Below are positions 3,114 through 15,602 of a stretch of 36,884 nt of DNA, in pieces. The notes below the pieces were generated by a model. That model searched no databases, was not told where the DNA came from, and was given only the letters and a program-made list of their open reading frames with translations. Within the stretch, counting starts at the first letter, position 1; every line of letters starts with the position of its first letter. The stretch is from Nitrospirota bacterium (GTDB taxonomy: Bacteria; JACPQY01): positions 1-36,884 of the forward strand of contig JACPQY010000030.1 in assembly GCA_016190245.1 (NCBI GenBank), written 5' to 3'. The translations under genes and the position numbers were made by a program.

Positions 3114-3205
3114 GGCACTCGATCTGTCCCGGCTGGCCCCTGGCTTGCGCCGCCAGAGAGGGCGTGGGGGGACGGCCCGCAGCAATGCGGGCGCAGGACC
3201 TACGG
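3108..3205. terminator. Dyad at convergent gene ends
   Basis: CCGTAGG at 3108-3114 and CCTACGG at 3199-3205 form 7-base inverted arms that include or abut the TAG stops of the two convergent genes. Between them CCCGCA-GCAA-TGCGGG forms a 6-bp stem with a tetraloop near 3176-3191. No T-run follows, so a Rho-independent terminator is only a guess. This is the one convergent junction in the window without the TCCGCC-NN-GGCGGA palindrome or the 70-bp repeat. Confidence 0.35.
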
Positions 3206-4258
3206 TAGGTGGGCTTGGGCCAAGGGTTTTGAACCAGACCGCAGGCGCCAGGGCGGCAGAAGCTCTTCCTTGGCGAGGTCCTGCAAGAGCAGTTCGGAAA
3301 AACGGTGGCTTCCCTTTTCGTTGAGGTGGCCCCAGTCCGAGAACAGGGCCGGATCGGAATTGATTTCGCCGACGCGTTCGCCGTTGTAGTTCAAGTAGGG
3401 AAGGCGTGTTCGGTGGACTACCTCATCAACCACGGTGGGACTTTCGCCCTGAATGGATCGGCCTCCTAAGTACTCGGGCACCTGGACAAATACCACATCG
3501 AGACCGTCCTCCTGGATCATGGAGAGCAGGGTCTCGAGAGCCCTGACCTGATGTTCGTCGTGGTGCAGGGCAATGGCGCGCGGCGCGAGGCTTGAGCGGT
3601 GCTCGAGCGGAGCGTAGCCATGATAGAACTTCTCCATCGCGACGTCGTGGTAGTCTGTTCGCGCAACAAAGATGGTTTCGAAATAGAACCTTTCCTTGAT
3701 GAGTGGATAGCGATTCATGATCAGTGTTCTTCTGGAGGTATCCGGACTGACGAGGAGCCGGAGGAATAGTTCGACCGGGAAGTACTCACTGTCATCCTCG
3801 AATTGCCTTTTCCAGAGGTTCTCGTCGAACATGAACCAGTCAACGGCGTACAGGATCGTCGAGGGCCGGTGGGGGGATCTGCGGAAAAGGTTCTCGTACC
3901 AGTTCAGATAGTACCGGGGACTGCTTCCGGCGATGGCGAAGTTATAGACCTCCACTCCCGCCCGCTCGAGCACTCCGGGATGTATGCCGTAGCTCGCGTG
4001 AGAAGAGCCAAAGATAACAAGTTCCGCACGAACTTCCGGGGTCAGCAGCTCCGCGAACTGGAGCTCGGTCGACGTGGTGACGTTACCAGCCATTCGGGCA
4101 TTCAGCAGGATGGCGAGGACGAGGAGCGAGGCGGCCACTCCACCTGCCCGCAGGAGGAAGCGGGCGACGCTGGCCCGCTGGCTCGGGTTTGGAATAGCAG
4201 GGTTTCCAAGAGGCTGCTCCGACGTCCGTCGGAGCCAACCCCAGTGTCGAGCCGACAT
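3200..4258 (-). CDS. SGNH/DltD-like membrane-anchored partner of the O-acyltransferase
   Basis: About 352 residues from the ATG at 4258, which leaves a basic N-terminus and one membrane helix (about residues 38-56). The extracytoplasmic domain carries an SGNH-type first block, VIFGSSHASYGI (residues 81-92, serine and histidine as in DltD-like proteins), an AGSSPRYY block, and a final D308-W-G-H311 block that supplies the Asp and His of the triad. Such proteins move or remove acyl groups on cell-surface polymers with an MBOAT channel, as in DltB/DltD and AlgI/AlgX-J. The MBOAT gene lies just upstream on the same strand. The frame is open further upstream, and an ATG at 4360 would overlap the MBOAT gene by 35 bases, so the start is uncertain. 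Local base composition is less GC-rich than the flanks. Confidence 0.75.
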   Translation of the reverse strand: MSARHWGWLRRTSEQPLGNPAIPNPSQRASVARFLLRAGGVAASLLVLAILLNARMAGNVTTSTELQFAELLTPEVRAELVIFGSSHASYGIHPGVLERAGVEVYNFAIAGSSPRYYLNWYENLFRRSPHRPSTILYAVDWFMFDENLWKRQFEDDSEYFPVELFLRLLVSPDTSRRTLIMNRYPLIKERFYFETIFVARTDYHDVAMEKFYHGYAPLEHRSSLAPRAIALHHDEHQVRALETLLSMIQEDGLDVVFVQVPEYLGGRSIQGESPTVVDEVVHRTRLPYLNYNGERVGEINSDPALFSDWGHLNEKGSHRFSELLLQDLAKEELLPPWRLRSGSKPLAQAHLP

Positions 4259-4325
4259 CAGGCGGACAACCAACCATGAACGGACGCGTCCAGCTTCCCG
4301 GGAGGGTCCCCGTGACTTCCGGCCT

Positions 4326-5792
4326 CTAAAACTGAAAATAGATGAATGAGTTGCTGTCATAGTTGCCCCAAAGCAGGATCGCAAGGACGATGGCGTCGTA
4401 GCTCGCCCATCTGAACCACACGGGTTTCTGAGTGAACCAGACATGGACGGAGAAGCGGCTTTGGAGTTTCTGCACGTAGACCATGAGGCCCGTCACAAGG
4501 ACGGCGACAAGCAGGCCCCTTCTCCCAAGTCCAATCTGGGTGACAAGTCGGTCGATACCGGCCAAGCTGGAGACCTCCAACCAGCCTGTGGTGAGATTCC
4601 TCGCGATGTAGAGCGCGTCCGGTACCGTATTCGCCCGGAAGAAGATCCACGCAAAGCACACCAGAACAAACGTCACACCGATCCTGATCCGCCTGTGAAC
4701 ACCGGGATGACGCGAGAGCCCGCAGCGCTCGGCCCACGTCGTGCGGTAGGTCTGTGTAACGCGAGCGCCGACCATGTACAGGCCGTGGAGTCCGCCCCAG
4801 ATCACAAACGTCCAACTCGCTCCATGCCAAAGGCCGCTGGCAAGAAAGACGACAAACACGTTAAGGGACCACCGTGCGAACGAGACCTTCCGCCCTCCCA
4901 GCGGCAAATAGACGTAGTCCCTGAACCAGGCGGAGAGCGACATGTGCCACCGGCGCCAGAAGTCAGAGATCGACTCCGCGGCGTACGGCCTTTCGAAATT
5001 CGGGCTCAGGTGGAAGCCGAGAACACGCGCCGAGCCGATCCCGATATCCACATAGCCCGAGAAGTCACAGTAGATTTGCAGGGCGAAACAGAAGGTGGCG
5101 AGGACGAACTGAGGGCCGTTGCCGTCCGCCGGATTGGCATAGACGTGGTTCACGACCACGCCAAGACGGTCGGCGATGGCCAACTTCTTGAAGAAGCCCC
5201 AGGCCATCAGCGAGAGCCCACTCGTTGCGAGTGTGTAATCGAACCTTTGGCGGTCACGGAACTGTGGGAGCAACCTGCCGGCCCTCTCGATCGGCCCGGC
5301 CACGAGTTGAGGGAAGAAGGACACGTAGAGCGCAAAGATGCCGAGATGCTGTTCGGCTCGTTGGGTGCCGCGATAGACGTCGAATGTGTAGCTTAGGGTC
5401 TGGAATGTGTAGAAGGAGATCCCGACGGGCAGCAGGAAGTTGTGTTCAGGCAGGCTGACCGTAGAATCGGCCAAGCGGAGCACCGAGTTGAGTGAATGGG
5501 AGAAGAAATTGTAGTACTTGAAGAAGGCCAGCATGCCGAGGTTGGAGAAGAGGCTGAAGAAGAGGAACAGTCGGCGAGTGCGGCGGTTCTCTATGCGCGA
5601 GATGCGCAGCGCAGCGTAGTAGTCGATGAGCGTGGAAAGGAGGACCAAGAGGCCGTACGCGGGCTTCCAAGCTGCGTAGAAGTAGTAGCTGGCGCCCAGC
5701 AGAAGGGCCCATCGAAGGCGGTGGGGTGCGGCGAAGAAGAACACCACGACCATGGGAAAGAACACCAGGAAGCCCAGCGAATTGAACTGCAT
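4326..5792 (-). CDS. MBOAT-family O-acyltransferase (AlgI/DltB-like)
   Basis: This is a 488-residue polytopic membrane protein, the usual size for AlgI-type MBOAT enzymes. The signature blocks are LPVGISFYTFQTLSY (121-135), SFFPQLVAGPIER (158-170), ISDFWRRWHMSLSAWFRDYVY (275-295, His283) and ASGLWHGASWTFVIWGGLHG (318-337), in which His323 is the expected catalytic histidine. AlgI-type proteins carry acetyl groups across the inner membrane to acetylate exopolysaccharide or other surface glycans. The SGNH protein encoded next on the same strand would finish the transfer. No polysaccharide synthase is in the window, so the acceptor is unknown. The start gives the canonical N-terminus MQFNSLGFLVFF, although no clear Shine-Dalgarno is visible. 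Confidence 0.92.
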   Translation of the reverse strand: MQFNSLGFLVFFPMVVVFFFAAPHRLRWALLLGASYYFYAAWKPAYGLLVLLSTLIDYYAALRISRIENRRTRRLFLFFSLFSNLGMLAFFKYYNFFSHSLNSVLRLADSTVSLPEHNFLLPVGISFYTFQTLSYTFDVYRGTQRAEQHLGIFALYVSFFPQLVAGPIERAGRLLPQFRDRQRFDYTLATSGLSLMAWGFFKKLAIADRLGVVVNHVYANPADGNGPQFVLATFCFALQIYCDFSGYVDIGIGSARVLGFHLSPNFERPYAAESISDFWRRWHMSLSAWFRDYVYLPLGGRKVSFARWSLNVFVVFLASGLWHGASWTFVIWGGLHGLYMVGARVTQTYRTTWAERCGLSRHPGVHRRIRIGVTFVLVCFAWIFFRANTVPDALYIARNLTTGWLEVSSLAGIDRLVTQIGLGRRGLLVAVLVTGLMVYVQKLQSRFSVHVWFTQKPVWFRWASYDAIVLAILLWGNYDSNSFIYFQF

Positions 5793-8811: not shown

Positions 8812-8886
8812 CACGCGGGATGGGCGCGGCTGGAGTGGTTGGCGGAAAGGGCGAGACAGAGGTGGCCAGGCCTTCGGGATGAGGTT

Positions 8887-9720
8887 ATGATCCCGGCCGT
8901 GCGTCGAGCACGCTCACGTCAGATCATCACACTGACGACGGACTTCGGGGACCGAGACTGGTTCGTGGCTTCGATGAAGGGGGTGATCCATTCCATCGCG
9001 CCGGGTTGCGAGATCGTGGATGTGAGCCACCAGATCGCTCCGGGCGACGTGAGGGCCGCGAGCTTCATTCTGGCGGCCGCGGCGCCATGCTTTCCGCAGG
9101 GGACGATCCACGTGGGAGTGGTGGATCCGGGGGTAGGAAGCGCGAGACAGGCCATCGCCATCGAGACCGGGCGGGGAATCTACGTGGGGCCGAACAACGG
9201 GATCTTCACGCACGTGATGGCCGCGGAGGGGCTCGAGCAGGCCGTGCGTCTCGACCGGCCCAAGTATTTTCGCCGTCCGGTCAGCTCCACGTTTCATGGG
9301 CGGGATGTTTTCGCCCCCCTGGCGGCGCAGCTCGCCCACGGGGTGCCTCTGGGCCGCTTGGGGTCGGTTGAGGGTGAGATTCTGTTCCTGGATCAGACGA
9401 CCCCAATCCGCGCGGACAGCGGATGGCGGTGTCGGATTCTCTACGTGGATCGCTTCGGGAACGCGATCACGGAGATCAGCCGGGGGTGGTTGGGAAGCCA
9501 CCGGATGCGGGCGAGCGACCTGGAGGTGAGGGTCGGCCGGCGTGTCGTGCGCGGCCTCGCGAGATCCTATGCCGAGGGATCAGCGAGCGAGCTGTTCGCG
9601 ATCTTCAACTCGCTCGACCTGCTCGAGCTGAGCGTCAGGGGGGGGAACGCCGCTCGCCGGTTCGGGTTGCGAGTCGGGCAGGAGGTACTCGTCCGCCCGA
9701 GGCGGGGAGGGGCGGCCTGA
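8887..9720 (+). CDS. S-adenosyl-L-methionine hydroxide adenosyltransferase (DUF62)
   Basis: This is a 277-residue protein from the ATG at 8887, with GAGG just upstream; the in-frame TTG at 8839 adds unconserved residues. The family blocks are ITLTTDFGDRDWFVASMKG (about 14-32), IVDVSHQIAPGDVRAASF, IHVGVVDPGVGS, YVGPNNGIFT, STFHGRDVFAPLAA and ILYVDRFGNAITEI. This fold includes fluorinase and chlorinase, but members without the halide-site insertions hydrolyse SAM to adenosine and methionine, with water activated by a conserved Asp-Arg-His set (H-G-R-D here). The hydrolase role is therefore the likely one. It may trim SAM used by the methyltransferase upstream, although 75 bases separate it from the preceding gene. 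Confidence 0.9.
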   Translation: MIPAVRRARSRQIITLTTDFGDRDWFVASMKGVIHSIAPGCEIVDVSHQIAPGDVRAASFILAAAAPCFPQGTIHVGVVDPGVGSARQAIAIETGRGIYVGPNNGIFTHVMAAEGLEQAVRLDRPKYFRRPVSSTFHGRDVFAPLAAQLAHGVPLGRLGSVEGEILFLDQTTPIRADSGWRCRILYVDRFGNAITEISRGWLGSHRMRASDLEVRVGRRVVRGLARSYAEGSASELFAIFNSLDLLELSVRGGNAARRFGLRVGQEVLVRPRRGGAA

Positions 9721-9867: not shown

Positions 9868-10824
9868 CTATCTGAGGCGGTCCTCGCGAAGGAGGCGGAA
9901 GAAATGCCGCCAAGCGAAGATGAGCGGCAACCGGCGTTCGAGCGGGGTGAGATGGATTCTCTCGCCTTGACTGCGCTCGATCTTGTCCACGAGGTACTCC
10001 GTCCAGTTCTTGAAGAGCAGGATGTATTTCACGAGCCGCCATTTCCCGTTCCGGCGGGAGCGGGCAATCAGAGGATCGGCTAGGCTGTGCAGGTCGGTGG
10101 GATCCGCGGCGACCCGGTAGGACGATCCGACGCCGGCCACCCAGCCGCAGCGTTCGAGATGCCGTAGGATCGTGCCATACGCGCGCGCATAGAAGTCGCG
10201 CTCCGCGGCGAGGAGTCCCTCGATTTTCCCTTTCTCCACCATCCGGAACTCGGCTCGGTAGCTGGCGCGGAGTGCGCCCAGGATGAAGACGTCGAGGTCG
10301 AAGATCTCGGGGAGGTCCGACAGGGCGAGGATGCCGTTGAGCGCCATGCTGCGCGCCCAGGCTTGGACCAGGTTACTCCGGTACGCAGCGTCGGCGCGGA
10401 GAATCGCGACCCGCTTCCCCAGCCGCCCGGCGATGGCCAGGTCGGGAGGGCTCGTCGAGGTGGCCCGTTCGAAATCGTCGCGGGTGAGGATGTAGTACTT
10501 GCACCGGCTGGGTCCTCCCGCTCGTTTCGAGATCGTCTCGGAAAGCGCGTGGGGAGGGAGGAAGGAGTAGAGGCACCGCTGGCCGAAAGTGAGGTTGACG
10601 GACCGTTTGTCCCGCCCGATGAGGATGAAGTCCGGGAAGCTTGTAGGCTTCCGGAGAGCGGGGGAGAGGTACGATCCATAGAGGATTAAGGCGTTGATGT
10701 TACTGTCGTACTTACGGTAGAATAAGTCTATATATTCATGTAATACATCATCATCAGGACCGGCGGAGGCCGTGTCAAGTAGGGGGGGCAGCTCCTCGGG
10801 AGGGTCCGGCAGAGGGGAGAGCAC
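9868..10824 (-). CDS. Tam41-like CDP-diacylglycerol synthase
   Basis: This is a 318-residue protein, close to mitochondrial Tam41 (about 330-390). Family features recalled from human and yeast Tam41 appear in order: the nucleotidyltransferase loop ALILYGS (Gly50, Ser51) followed by PDFILI with the acidic Asp65; DLAIAGRLGKRVAIL (129-142), matching the Tam41 AGRLxKPV block; and SYRAEFRMVEKGKI (188-201), matching its SYxGDFRM block, then a YGTIL helix. Tam41 makes CDP-diacylglycerol from phosphatidate and CTP as a peripheral membrane enzyme. Activity here is inferred. The start is a GTG 32 bases after the ruvB stop, so the two are probably one transcript. An AT-rich codon island covers residues about 22-48. 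Confidence 0.75.
   Translation of the reverse strand: MLSPLPDPPEELPPLLDTASAGPDDDVLHEYIDLFYRKYDSNINALILYGSYLSPALRKPTSFPDFILIGRDKRSVNLTFGQRCLYSFLPPHALSETISKRAGGPSRCKYYILTRDDFERATSTSPPDLAIAGRLGKRVAILRADAAYRSNLVQAWARSMALNGILALSDLPEIFDLDVFILGALRASYRAEFRMVEKGKIEGLLAAERDFYARAYGTILRHLERCGWVAGVGSSYRVAADPTDLHSLADPLIARSRRNGKWRLVKYILLFKNWTEYLVDKIERSQGERIHLTPLERRLPLIFAWRHFFRLLREDRLR
10681..10760. other. AT-rich codon island in the Tam41-like gene
   Basis: About 51 of these 80 bases are A or T, against roughly one third in the flanking coding DNA. On the coding strand the codons switch to forms rare elsewhere in the window (TTA, GTA, ATA, GAA, GAT, TAT) while the frame and protein stay intact. A similar island lies in pyrG at 26121-26200. 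Confidence 0.6.
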
Positions 10825-10856: not shown

Positions 10857-11894
10857 TCACGAGAAGAGCGGCCCCTGCGCCGGTGAGGGCGGCTTCCGGC
10901 CGAGGTGGGCATACGCCTGGGGTGTGGCGAGGCGGCCCCGCGGGGTGCGATCGAGGAAACCGATCTGGATGAGGTACGGCTCGTAGATGTCCTCGATGGT
11001 CCGTTTCTCCTCGTGGAGGGCGGAGGCGAGCGTGTCCACGCCCACCGGCCCGCCCCGGAAGGTTTCGATGATCGTAAGAAGGAGCTTTCGGTCCATCGGG
11101 TCCAGCCCGAGCGCATCGATCTCCATTCGTTCGAGGGCCTCGGTGGCCAGCGTGTTTTCGATGACGCCCTGGCGCCGGATCTGGGCGAAATCGCGGACCC
11201 GCCGGAGATAGCGGTTGGCGATGCGCGGCGTGCCGCGGGAGCGGCGGGCGATCTCGTGGGCGCCCTCGTGGGTGACGGCCACGCTCAGGAGCTTCGCGGA
11301 TCGCGTGACGATCTTTTCGAGGTCGGCCACGGTGTAGTAGTCGAGCCGAAGGAGGACGCCGAACCGGTCGCGCAAGGGCGAAGTCAGGAGCCCCGTGCGT
11401 GTCGTGGCGCCGATGAGCGTAAAGGGCTTGAGGTCCAGCTTGATGGTGCGGGCGGATGGCCCCTGGCCGAGTAGGACGTCCACCTTGCGATCTTCCAAGG
11501 CGGGATAAAGCGTCTCTTCCACAACTTTCGGGAGGCGGTGGATCTCGTCGATGAAGAAGACGTCCCGGGCTTGGAGGTTGGTCATGACGGCCACGACGTC
11601 GCCGGGTTTTTCGAGAATGGGCCCGGCGGTGGGATGGATGTTCACACCGAGGGCGTGACTGATGATGTGCGCAAGGGTGGTCTTGCCGAGACCCGGCGGG
11701 CCGTGGAAGAGGATGTGGTCGAGGGCCTCGCCTCGCTCGAGGGCGGCGGCGATGTAGACGGAGAGGTTCTCCTTGAGCCGGTCCTGGCCGATGAATTCGT
11801 CCAGGGTCCGCGGCCTCAGGCTCGTCTCGAGGCTACGCTCTTCCTCGATGGGTTCCGGGCCGTAGGCGAGAGGATCGTCGGCAGGATCCTCCAT
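10857..11894 (-). CDS. ruvB: Holliday junction branch-migration ATPase RuvB
   Basis: This is a 345-residue protein, the standard RuvB length, from the ATG at 11894; the frame upstream is open but unrelated to the family. It shows the N-terminal [12 protein letters not shown], Walker A GPPGLGKT (65-72), Walker [11 protein letters not shown], sensor region [19 protein letters not shown] and the winged-helix end [21 protein letters not shown]. RuvB hexamers drive branch migration with RuvA before RuvC cuts the junction. No ruvA or ruvC lies in this window. The Tam41-like gene follows on the same strand. The divergent DUF218 gene starts about 145 bases away. Confidence 0.97.
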
Positions 11895-12039
11895 TGGACC
11901 ACCCGAGGGGCCACGCTGTTTCGGCACGGGGTGGAGTCTACTGTGGGGGGGGTGTCGCTGCAACGGTCCGTCGTTCGACTTCCAGGTGCGCCGGCGGTCA
12001 CCGGTTGGTATAGTTCGGCGCATCGAAGGATCAGGTCAC

Positions 12040-12885: not shown

Positions 12886-14277
12886 TCAGGGAACCGCGCC
12901 CTCGGGTTTCAGTTCCGTGACAGGCTCGCGCGGGTCCTCGAGATCGGGCAGGAGTCTCTCCAGATCCTCGGAAGGGACGAGATACGCGACGGCCTTCTGG
13001 TCGTTTTTCAGGTAGGCGTGCGCCTTGCCGTCCCGGTCCACGCGGGCGCCCACGAGGAGGGGCGGATGCGTGGTGGCTCCTTCCTTCAGCACAATCCGGA
13101 GGCGCGGCGAGTCGAGGCCGAATTCAGGTTTCACCCCTCGCTGGATGTCGCTCGCCTCGGCGTCGTCGAGGAACCGCAGGAGGTTCGAGACGAGGTCCTT
13201 CTTGGCCTTGCCGGCCCCGGGCTGCGTCACGCGCCACTCGCCGTCCTTCTTCTCGAAAGCGAAACTTCCTTTGGGTGTCGTGAGGTCCACGGCGGTTACA
13301 TCGAACCGGCTGAAGCGTAGCGGGCGTTTCTGGATCAAGTTGGAGGGTGACTTCCTCAGGTTGTCCACGCTGTACTTGTCCAACTCGAAGACCGTCGCCC
13401 TCGACGCTTGGCGTGCGTAGAACCGTTCCTTGTCCTTCACGGCCCGGCCGATCTCGACGGTTTCCGTGGCGACGCCTTGGGGGCTTTCCCATTCGATGGC
13501 GTAGCTCGCGGAGGGCTTGGACAGACCGTAGCGGCCGGGATCGCCGGGGTGCTCGTCCGAGAACTCGCGGATGCGGAGGTTGGCGAGGTCGCGGACGAGG
13601 TTCTTGACGGTCTCCTGATCCAGATCGAGCGTGGGATCGGCGTCGAGGACCCATGTTTCACCCGACCGTCGGAGTTTGGTTTCTCCCTCGGTCTTTTCGT
13701 TCTGGAAGCGGATGGCCTGGACCTTCTCACGATCGAGCTTCAACACCTCCTTGTTCCGCAGGCTGAATACGTCCCGGTCGAACACGCTCTTCACGGCCGA
13801 GCTGACGAGGAGGACCCGGGGCTCATCGCCCCGCTGCGCGTAGTGGTTGTAGCCGATCGGCGTCTTCTCCCCGAGCAGGAGAAAGGAGGGCTCGGTTTGG
13901 CCCTTCGCGCGGAAGGCGACACGGATCTTGTGGGGATCGAGGCCGAAGGCTGCCGGGTTGTCCGCTTGCTCGGCGATGACCCGCTCGTACTGCGCCTCCT
14001 CCAGCTTCGTGCGCATGCTCTTGACCGTGGCGTCATCCGCGAGGTCTTCGACCGGCGCAGTGAGGCGCCACGCGCCGTCCTCGGCCTTTGCGAGTCGGAT
14101 CTCGGCTTCCTTCTCGCGTTGAACGGAAAGTTCGATGAGGTCGTCCGCCTTGACGTTGAAGAGCAGGGTTTCCTCCTTCTTCCGGGTCTCCTTCCGGTCG
14201 GACCACCAGCGGTCGAATGCCACATACCCGAGGAGGAGGGCCAGGAAGACAGCGGAAATGACAACGCGACGGGTCAT
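12886..14277 (-). CDS. DUF4340 protein, membrane-anchored
   Basis: This is a 463-residue protein. The ATG at 14277 gives a signal anchor ([21 protein letters not shown]) and overlaps the stop of the preceding LarA-like gene as ATGA. The rest is the DUF4340 pattern: repeated blocks of the type LFNVKADDLIELSVQREK, WRLTAPVEDLADDATVKSM, RFSRFDVTAVDLTTPKGSFAFEK and GEWRVTQPGAGKAKKDLVSNLLRFL. DUF4340 proteins usually stand beside GldG-like ABC-transport auxiliary proteins; none is here, which makes the pairing with LarA unusual. An extracytoplasmic location is inferred. The same frame stays open upstream to about 15171, but that part only shadows the LarA-like gene. Confidence 0.85.
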   Translation of the reverse strand: MTRRVVISAVFLALLLGYVAFDRWWSDRKETRKKEETLLFNVKADDLIELSVQREKEAEIRLAKAEDGAWRLTAPVEDLADDATVKSMRTKLEEAQYERVIAEQADNPAAFGLDPHKIRVAFRAKGQTEPSFLLLGEKTPIGYNHYAQRGDEPRVLLVSSAVKSVFDRDVFSLRNKEVLKLDREKVQAIRFQNEKTEGETKLRRSGETWVLDADPTLDLDQETVKNLVRDLANLRIREFSDEHPGDPGRYGLSKPSASYAIEWESPQGVATETVEIGRAVKDKERFYARQASRATVFELDKYSVDNLRKSPSNLIQKRPLRFSRFDVTAVDLTTPKGSFAFEKKDGEWRVTQPGAGKAKKDLVSNLLRFLDDAEASDIQRGVKPEFGLDSPRLRIVLKEGATTHPPLLVGARVDRDGKAHAYLKNDQKAVAYLVPSEDLERLLPDLEDPREPVTELKPEGAVP

Positions 14278-15536
14278 GCGGCGGCGGGGACGAAGGGCAG
14301 GATTCGGCTCCCTTCGGGGACGACATAAAGGGCGTCTTCGGAGGCAAGCATGGAGCGGCAGTAATATAGGGCGTCCCTCAGCGATGCGCAAGGCACGATG
14401 CCCATGCGCTGCAGGTCGGTCGGGCGGAGGGACGATACGAGAAGCACACGGTGTGACTCGGCCTTCCGCATGATGCTCCACGCGGTGCGGCCGTAGGGGT
14501 GGAATCGCTTGCGCAGCGCGGCCAAGAGGGTGCTCGGCGAATCGTAGGAGAACCACTGGAGGAAATCGGGAATGCCGAAGCCGTCCCCGCATTCGGCCAG
14601 GAGAATGAGAGCGCCGCCGGGGCGGAGCGCGTGCAAGCCGGAGGCCAGGGCTTTGTGGGCCTGGATGAGATTGAGGTCGCGCGGATATCCGCCGGTTGAG
14701 ACGACCGCGGCCTGGGAAGTTTTGGCGATGGGAACGCGGTAGCGCGACTGCACATAGGCGCAGCCGCGGGCGTGGGCCTCGGCGACGGGCCCCGAGAAGG
14801 CCGCCTCGGGCCGGCCCTCGGGCGAGAGGACCGTGTTGATGAGGTAGAACCGGCCCGTGAGAAGTCTTCCGAGGGAGGAGATCTCCTCGAAAAAGGGGTT
14901 GCCTGCCGTTAGTCCGATGTCCACGCGATCCCCTTCGTCGAGGGTGAGCCGATGGAAATCGAGGATGGTGGCTTCCGAGGCCACCCCGGGCGCCACGATC
15001 TTCCACCCGCCGCTCATGCCGGCGAGATAGTGGAAGGCCACCGTTCCCGTAAGGATCACGCGATCGGCCTCGATCACGGAGCGGTTGATTTCGACGCGGA
15101 TTCCCCTTGGCGAGGTCCCCGCCTCGGCGAGCGCGGTGGCGTCGCGGCAGTCGTGATTCAGCAGGGAGCATGAGGTGGGGCCGGTGAGGCCGAGGATCTG
15201 GCGCATCTCGGGGGGCCGCAGCGGCCGGTGGAGGCCGTTGGCGAACAGGACACTCACGCGGTTCTCGGGAATTCCCGCCGCCGCGGCCCGCCTCAAGAGG
15301 AGGGGGAAGTACACCTGGAGTCCGGCGGGGCGCGTGACGTCCGGCGCGACCACGAGAATCTTCCGTCCGCCGCTCAGGAACTCATCCAGCGAGGGTTGAA
15401 GGATGTCGTACTGGGTGAGGGGGGGCGCGCTGGAGGGCGGGGCGGCCAGGACGGTGGTGCGGTTTTCCCGATCCTCCCAGAAGAATGTCTTTCGACCGTA
15501 CCGAAGCCGGATTCGCATGGGATGGCGGGAAAGCAT
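14274..15536 (-). CDS. LarA-like (DUF2088) nickel-pincer racemase/epimerase homologue
   Basis: This is a 420-residue protein, the usual LarA length. The start at 15536 is favoured by GGAGGG upstream; 15518 is the alternative. Family catalytic positions are kept: Asp66 and Arg69 in [11 protein letters not shown], His103 in ANGLHRPL, and His169 and Lys179 in [16 protein letters not shown], with the ten-residue spacing of His174 and Lys184 in lactate racemase LarA, where the lysine holds the nickel-pincer cofactor. LarA relatives racemise or epimerise 2-hydroxy acids. The cofactor-making larB, larC and larE are not in the window and would have to be encoded elsewhere. It overlaps the DUF4340 gene by four bases. 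Confidence 0.88.
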
Positions 15537-15573
15537 AGCCGTTCGCCCTCCGCTTGGGAAGAGAAAGGGGGCT

Positions 15574-15602
15574 TTGACAGGAGAGGCGCGAGCCGACATA
15601 CT
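15574..15602 (+). promoter_or_regulatory. Sigma-70-like promoter for folE
   Basis: TTGACA at 15574-15579, a 17-base spacer, then CATACT at 15597-15602. The -35 is perfect and the -10 keeps four of six bases. Transcription would begin near 15609, about ten bases before the GTG taken as the folE start. Confidence 0.6.

Follow-up and report, generated by a model that had tools for sequence, protein, structure and literature searches.

Almost all phospholipids of bacteria derive from CDP-diacylglycerol (CDP-DAG), and CdsA is regarded as the general bacterial route to this precursor. In Escherichia coli cdsA is essential (PMC7018664). An open reading frame in the stretch of Nitrospirota DNA analyzed here (contig JACPQY010000030.1, 36,884 nucleotides; herein the window) raises the question of whether a soluble protein of the Tam41 type contributes to this step, beside CdsA or in its place. 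The product of this open reading frame is likely a CTP-dependent nucleotidyltransferase that is peripheral to the membrane (non-transmembrane) and belongs to a diverged Tam41-related clade; CDP-DAG synthase is the best prediction for it. Bacterial Tam41 as such is already known; in the literature searched we found no description of this diverged clade, of its lipid operons, or of the seeming disappearance of CdsA from genomes that carry it.

The boundaries of the gene and its conserved blocks are given in Table 1. A counterpart from the same taxonomic family (L011, genome G001) has an identical start position and encodes a protein with 53% identity to the window protein. Between the two genes, codon positions 1, 2, and 3 differ at 118, 96, and 193 of 318 codons; this predominance of third-position differences indicates a protein-coding gene under purifying constraint. 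Relatives were gathered by genome searches with the window protein, then with PF09139, and then with the alignment, giving full-length matches in 19 of 386 bacterial genomes sampled (the carriers). One of these, L029 from genome G105, is closer to canonical Tam41 and was set aside, leaving 18 genomes with a member of the clade. The plasmids searched gave no match, and the viral contigs searched held no true relative, L067 being a chance match within a phage gene.

Table 1. Position of the Tam41-like gene, its conserved blocks, and the adjoining ruvB in the window
Feature	Position	Strand	Basis or remark
ruvB	10857..12023	minus	Upstream, 32 bp gap; Pfam RuvB_N E 2e-74, NCBIfam NF000868 E 3e-150
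Tam41-like nucleotidyltransferase ORF	9868..10824	minus	GTG start, 318 aa; ORF call, 15-relative profile vs 7ECD/6IG2, hhalign 97.4%
Y49-G50-S51, nucleotidyltransferase loop	10672..10680	minus	Invariant in 15-member alignment; YGS kept in 7ECD and 6IG2; YGSG in canonical Tam41
D65-F66	10627..10632	minus	D65 is the acidic residue common with Tam41; aligns to D of IDL/IDF in 7ECD and 6IG2; invariant
K109 of CKY block (KYG in Tam41)	10498..10500	minus	Invariant in 15-member alignment; kept in both Tam41 structures
G133-R134-L-G-K137, GR(F/L)xK block	10414..10428	minus	Invariant positions; GRFQK in 7ECD and 6IG2
S188-Y189...R194, SYxxxxR block including FR of FRM	10243..10263	minus	Invariant positions; SYSGDTR / SYLGDIR in Tam41
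Basic C-terminal tail, residues 255-318	9871..10062	minus	Ends in hallmark ERRxPLIFxWRHFFRLLRxxxxR; absent from canonical-type L029 (alignments)

Kinship to Tam41, the central claim of the sequence-only reading, was expected to appear as a match to the Tam41 family model PF09139. Taken alone, the window protein does match it (E 1.9e-4, 21.4 bits), over residues 128 through 230 only and below the curated gathering cut-off of 24. L011 passes that cut-off at 31.7 bits, and of the 15 relatives 13 give a match with E no higher than 0.1 (best, 1.6e-14); PF09139-based annotation overlooks some of the Tam41-like family. On its own the window protein had no match in NCBIfam and no relevant phmmer match in the PDB, so a profile was needed. 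The 15-member profile retrieved the phosphatidate cytidylyltransferase 7ECD at E 3.2e-12 (profile positions 18 through 268 of 320) and the Schizosaccharomyces pombe Tam41 structures 6IG2 and 6IG4 at E ∼3e-11 (6IG2, 3.3e-11); we take 7ECD as the Firmicutes protein studied by Kimura et al. An hhalign comparison of the family with the two solved Tam41 proteins gave 97.4% probability (E 1.5e-11). The similarity spans both the nucleotidyltransferase and the winged-helix parts, and these profile results bear out the kinship. An AlphaFold2 model from a two-sequence input (the window protein and L003) reached a pLDDT of 38.7 and a pTM of 0.29, values too low for a fold to be read from the model.

Twelve residues that do not vary among 15 relatives recur in 7ECD and 6IG2 (Y49, G50, S51, D65, K109, G133, R134, K137, S188, Y189, R194, and K200), and all 12 are intact in the window protein. 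The open reading frame and the motifs first picked out in it are real: Y49-G50-S51...D65-F66, A132-G133-R134-L135-G136-K137, and F193-R194-M195 are all present. Of the three acidic residues that the nucleotidyltransferase fold normally carries, Tam41 reportedly retains one (PMC11646218), and the single invariant D65 agrees with this. K137 is absent from L069 and L070, which lack a PF09139 match and are the most divergent members in the tree.

The clade departs from canonical Tam41. It has a conserved tail of its own, ERRxPLIFGWRHFFRLLRxGxIR, which L029 lacks. The last residue of GSG is lost throughout (YGSx; YGSY in the window protein), and the WHxxN...(H/D)YS segment of Tam41 is missing clade-wide, a short LPPNxY stretch standing instead (LPPHAL/LPPNxY). 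With GSG altered and the HYS segment missing, the pocket for the phospholipid or for CTP could be different. The same changes would also suit a Tam41 relative that had lost catalysis and serves in this lineage as a lipid-binding or scaffold protein, a reading made extremely improbable by the 12 intact residues and by the purifying constraint on the gene. No transmembrane segment is predicted in the window protein, in keeping with its initial description as a soluble enzyme. Residues 251 through 318 carry 17 K/R and 7 D/E, but the highest helical moments fall in other parts of the protein.

In the window genome the Tam41-like gene adjoins ruvB, not lipid genes. No promoter-like site was found in the 32-bp gap between the two; one at 10778-10750 was disregarded because it falls inside coding sequence. 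The proposed co-transcription of the two genes is plausible, as a putative arrangement. The order of ruvB followed by the Tam41-like gene was seen only within the same bacterial family (L011, gap 143 bp), where the longer order LarA, DUF4340, ruvB, Tam41-like gene also looks retained. The LarA-type protein of the window (14274-15599, minus strand) is a homolog of nickel-pincer hydroxyacid racemases; its best NCBIfam match is malate racemase LarAH6, below the cut-off of that model. On the other side, a SAM hydroxide adenosyltransferase family gene (8839-9720, plus strand; PF01887 E 2e-54) is convergent with the Tam41-like gene. Farther away (3200-5792, minus strand), an MBOAT acyltransferase adjoins a DUF1574-like protein and resembles polysaccharide O-acetylation pairs.

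The position beside ruvB could point to a nucleotidyltransferase-fold protein with a non-lipid role, such as the modification of nucleotides, RNA, or small molecules, and possibly a connection to ruvB. The next nucleotidyltransferase in the same PDB profile search, the generic 9xbd, is weakly matched (E 2e-4), but over the core only, whereas the Tam41 similarity reaches through the winged-helix part. The ruvB link is moreover limited to one bacterial family, whereas compact lipid operons hold the Tam41-like gene in four others, and we judge a non-lipid role to be very unlikely.

These operons were seen at four loci. In L003 a DAG kinase gene is followed after 3 bp by the Tam41-like gene, an epimerase, and a PlsC-type acyltransferase; in L030 the DAG kinase gene overlaps the Tam41-like gene. 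A four-gene operon in L070 (8108-12483, genome G226) comprises a CDP-alcohol phosphatidyltransferase, a DAG kinase, a fatty acid desaturase, and the Tam41-like gene, and in L069 a PlsC-type acyltransferase precedes the Tam41-like gene, which is separated by a 1-bp gap from a CDP-alcohol phosphatidyltransferase. The product of DAG kinase is phosphatidate, the proposed substrate, and CDP-alcohol phosphatidyltransferases consume the proposed product. The most telling operons, those of L069 and L070, belong to the most divergent members.

A CDP-DAG synthase of this kind could act in place of CdsA, and replacement of CdsA in this lineage had been suggested from the sequence. A single ordinary cdsA, encoding 321 aa with SPKKTWEG and PGHGGVLDRLD (PF01148 E 1.8e-59), lies on contig C25 of the window genome (3.29 Mb; completeness about 85%), and the nearest relative, G001, also has cdsA (one PF01148 match); replacement in this lineage was accordingly rejected as unsupported. 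The window protein itself has no match to PF01148.

With CdsA present, bulk CDP-DAG would already be covered, which favors a lipid cytidylyltransferase that acts on a different or narrower substrate, for example in an inositol phospholipid branch running through the PIP-synthase-type CDP-alcohol phosphatidyltransferase and the inositol-phosphate synthase encoded in this genome, with CdsA serving bulk phospholipids. The CDP-alcohol phosphatidyltransferase of L069 is homologous (E 4e-37) to one in the window genome that lies beside an inositol-phosphate synthase, and both best match archaetidylinositol-phosphate or PIP synthase models, below cut-off. An INO1 match occurs in 12 of the 19 carriers vs 145 of 367 other genomes (p 0.04). 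At the level of bacterial families, however, the excess is small (8 of 13 vs about 40%), INO1 gives no match in several carriers, and the window gene lies apart from the inositol locus. We regard this narrower role as unlikely; the INO1 excess is marginal, and a general tie of the clade to inositol lipids was not accepted. The inositol locus of the window genome (L084 3748-7177; genome G000, contig C10) encodes an inositol-phosphate synthase, the PIP-synthase-like CDP-alcohol phosphatidyltransferase, and a third, bifunctional protein resembling archaeal inositol-phosphate cytidylyltransferase/di-inositol-phosphate synthase.

CDP-DAG synthesis remains our preferred reading for the clade, and in some relatives the Tam41-like gene stands apart from any detectable CdsA. 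PF01148 matches are present in 360 of 386 genomes overall and in 16 of the 19 carriers; G034, G179, and G105 have none, and G034 also lacks an INO1 match. Among high-quality genomes, CdsA is absent from 3 of 14 carriers vs 16 of 319 others (p 0.04), or from 2 of 13 carriers once the canonical-type G105 is left out (p 0.17), a weak excess. Gene order is stronger evidence for the loss of cdsA than these counts. The gene usually sits between uppS and dxr. In G179 (L078 6178-8138) and G034 (L079 7226-9180) a single contig carries the whole stretch rpsB-tsf-pyrH-frr-uppS-dxr-rseP, with a 4-bp overlap of uppS and dxr and no gene in the cdsA slot; uppS was identified as a PF01255 match, and the other genes presumably bear the names that we read from their protein sequences.

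A CdsA signature was not found in these two stretches by a pattern that detects CdsA in two controls, and CarS gave no match at E 1 in either genome. Both genomes retain PF01066 CDP-alcohol phosphatidyltransferases, the usual users of CDP-DAG or similar compounds. A badly diverged or unassembled CdsA may nonetheless account for its apparent absence there. In G105 the more canonical Tam41 gene (L029 4174-5061; PF09139 E 9e-21) lies upstream of dnaK/dnaJ, and uppS is followed by an unrelated 1050-aa open reading frame.

By analogy with Tam41 (reviewed in PMC7018664), the nucleotidyltransferase and winged-helix parts would form a cleft that binds CTP, with D65 as the single acidic metal ligand, and phosphatidate would enter from the membrane, on which the basic C-terminal tail may dock the protein. 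Transfer of CMP from CTP to phosphatidate would then yield CDP-DAG and pyrophosphate. We infer a division of labor in which the Tam41-like protein of the window genome would be a second source of CDP-DAG in addition to CdsA, perhaps serving one lipid branch in particular, and in at least two other lineages may be the sole source. That the diverged clade provides a working CDP-DAG synthase in several lineages, and in at least two has fully replaced CdsA with deletion of cdsA from the uppS-dxr operon, we consider quite possible and put forward tentatively. If true, CdsA would not be universal for bacterial CDP-DAG synthesis. A soluble, unrelated family that accompanies CdsA in many bacteria and seemingly substitutes for it in some would offer a clear and testable example in which a core step of membrane-lipid synthesis has been taken over by a non-homologous enzyme.

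Among known systems, the nearest comparison is with the Tam41 proteins themselves. In the tree the window protein and L011 pair at 100/100, and the clade is split from 7ECD, 6IG2, and L029 by a 97/92 branch; the branches are long and the finer order is unsafe. Within their aligned part, 7ECD and S. pombe Tam41 share 41% identity, and both lie across that branch from the clade. The Firmicutes enzyme being far closer to mitochondrial Tam41, the window clade says little about mitochondrial origin, on which it had been thought to bear; we rejected an origin of mitochondrial Tam41 from this clade, since 7ECD and 6IG2 fall outside it in the tree, long as the branches are.

The Firmicutes protein 7ECD shares with the window clade its character as a soluble bacterial protein, the same invariant residues, and the single acidic metal ligand. 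It keeps GSG and WHxxN...DYS, whereas the clade is marked by the short LPPNxY and a distinctive WRHFFRLL tail at the C terminus. CDP-DAG synthase activity is reported for bacterial Tam41 from Firmicutes and Proteobacteria (Kimura et al. 2022, doi 10.1093/jb/mvab154, as cited in PMC11646218); CDP-DAG formation is thus reported for the Firmicutes enzyme and proposed for the window clade. Mitochondrial Tam41/TAMM41 (6IG2, 6IG4) has the YGS, D, KY, GRFxK, SYxxxxR, and K positions in common with the window protein and is likewise a predicted peripheral membrane enzyme with a basic C-terminal region. The window protein differs in being bacterial, in having no presequence, in its tail, and in its distance, the two being linked by profile methods only. 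CdsA (PF01148) carries out the reaction that is proposed here for the clade, from CTP and phosphatidate to CDP-DAG, but is an unrelated integral membrane protein with the signature KDx5PGHGGx2DRxD; CdsA and the Tam41-like protein are both encoded in this genome.
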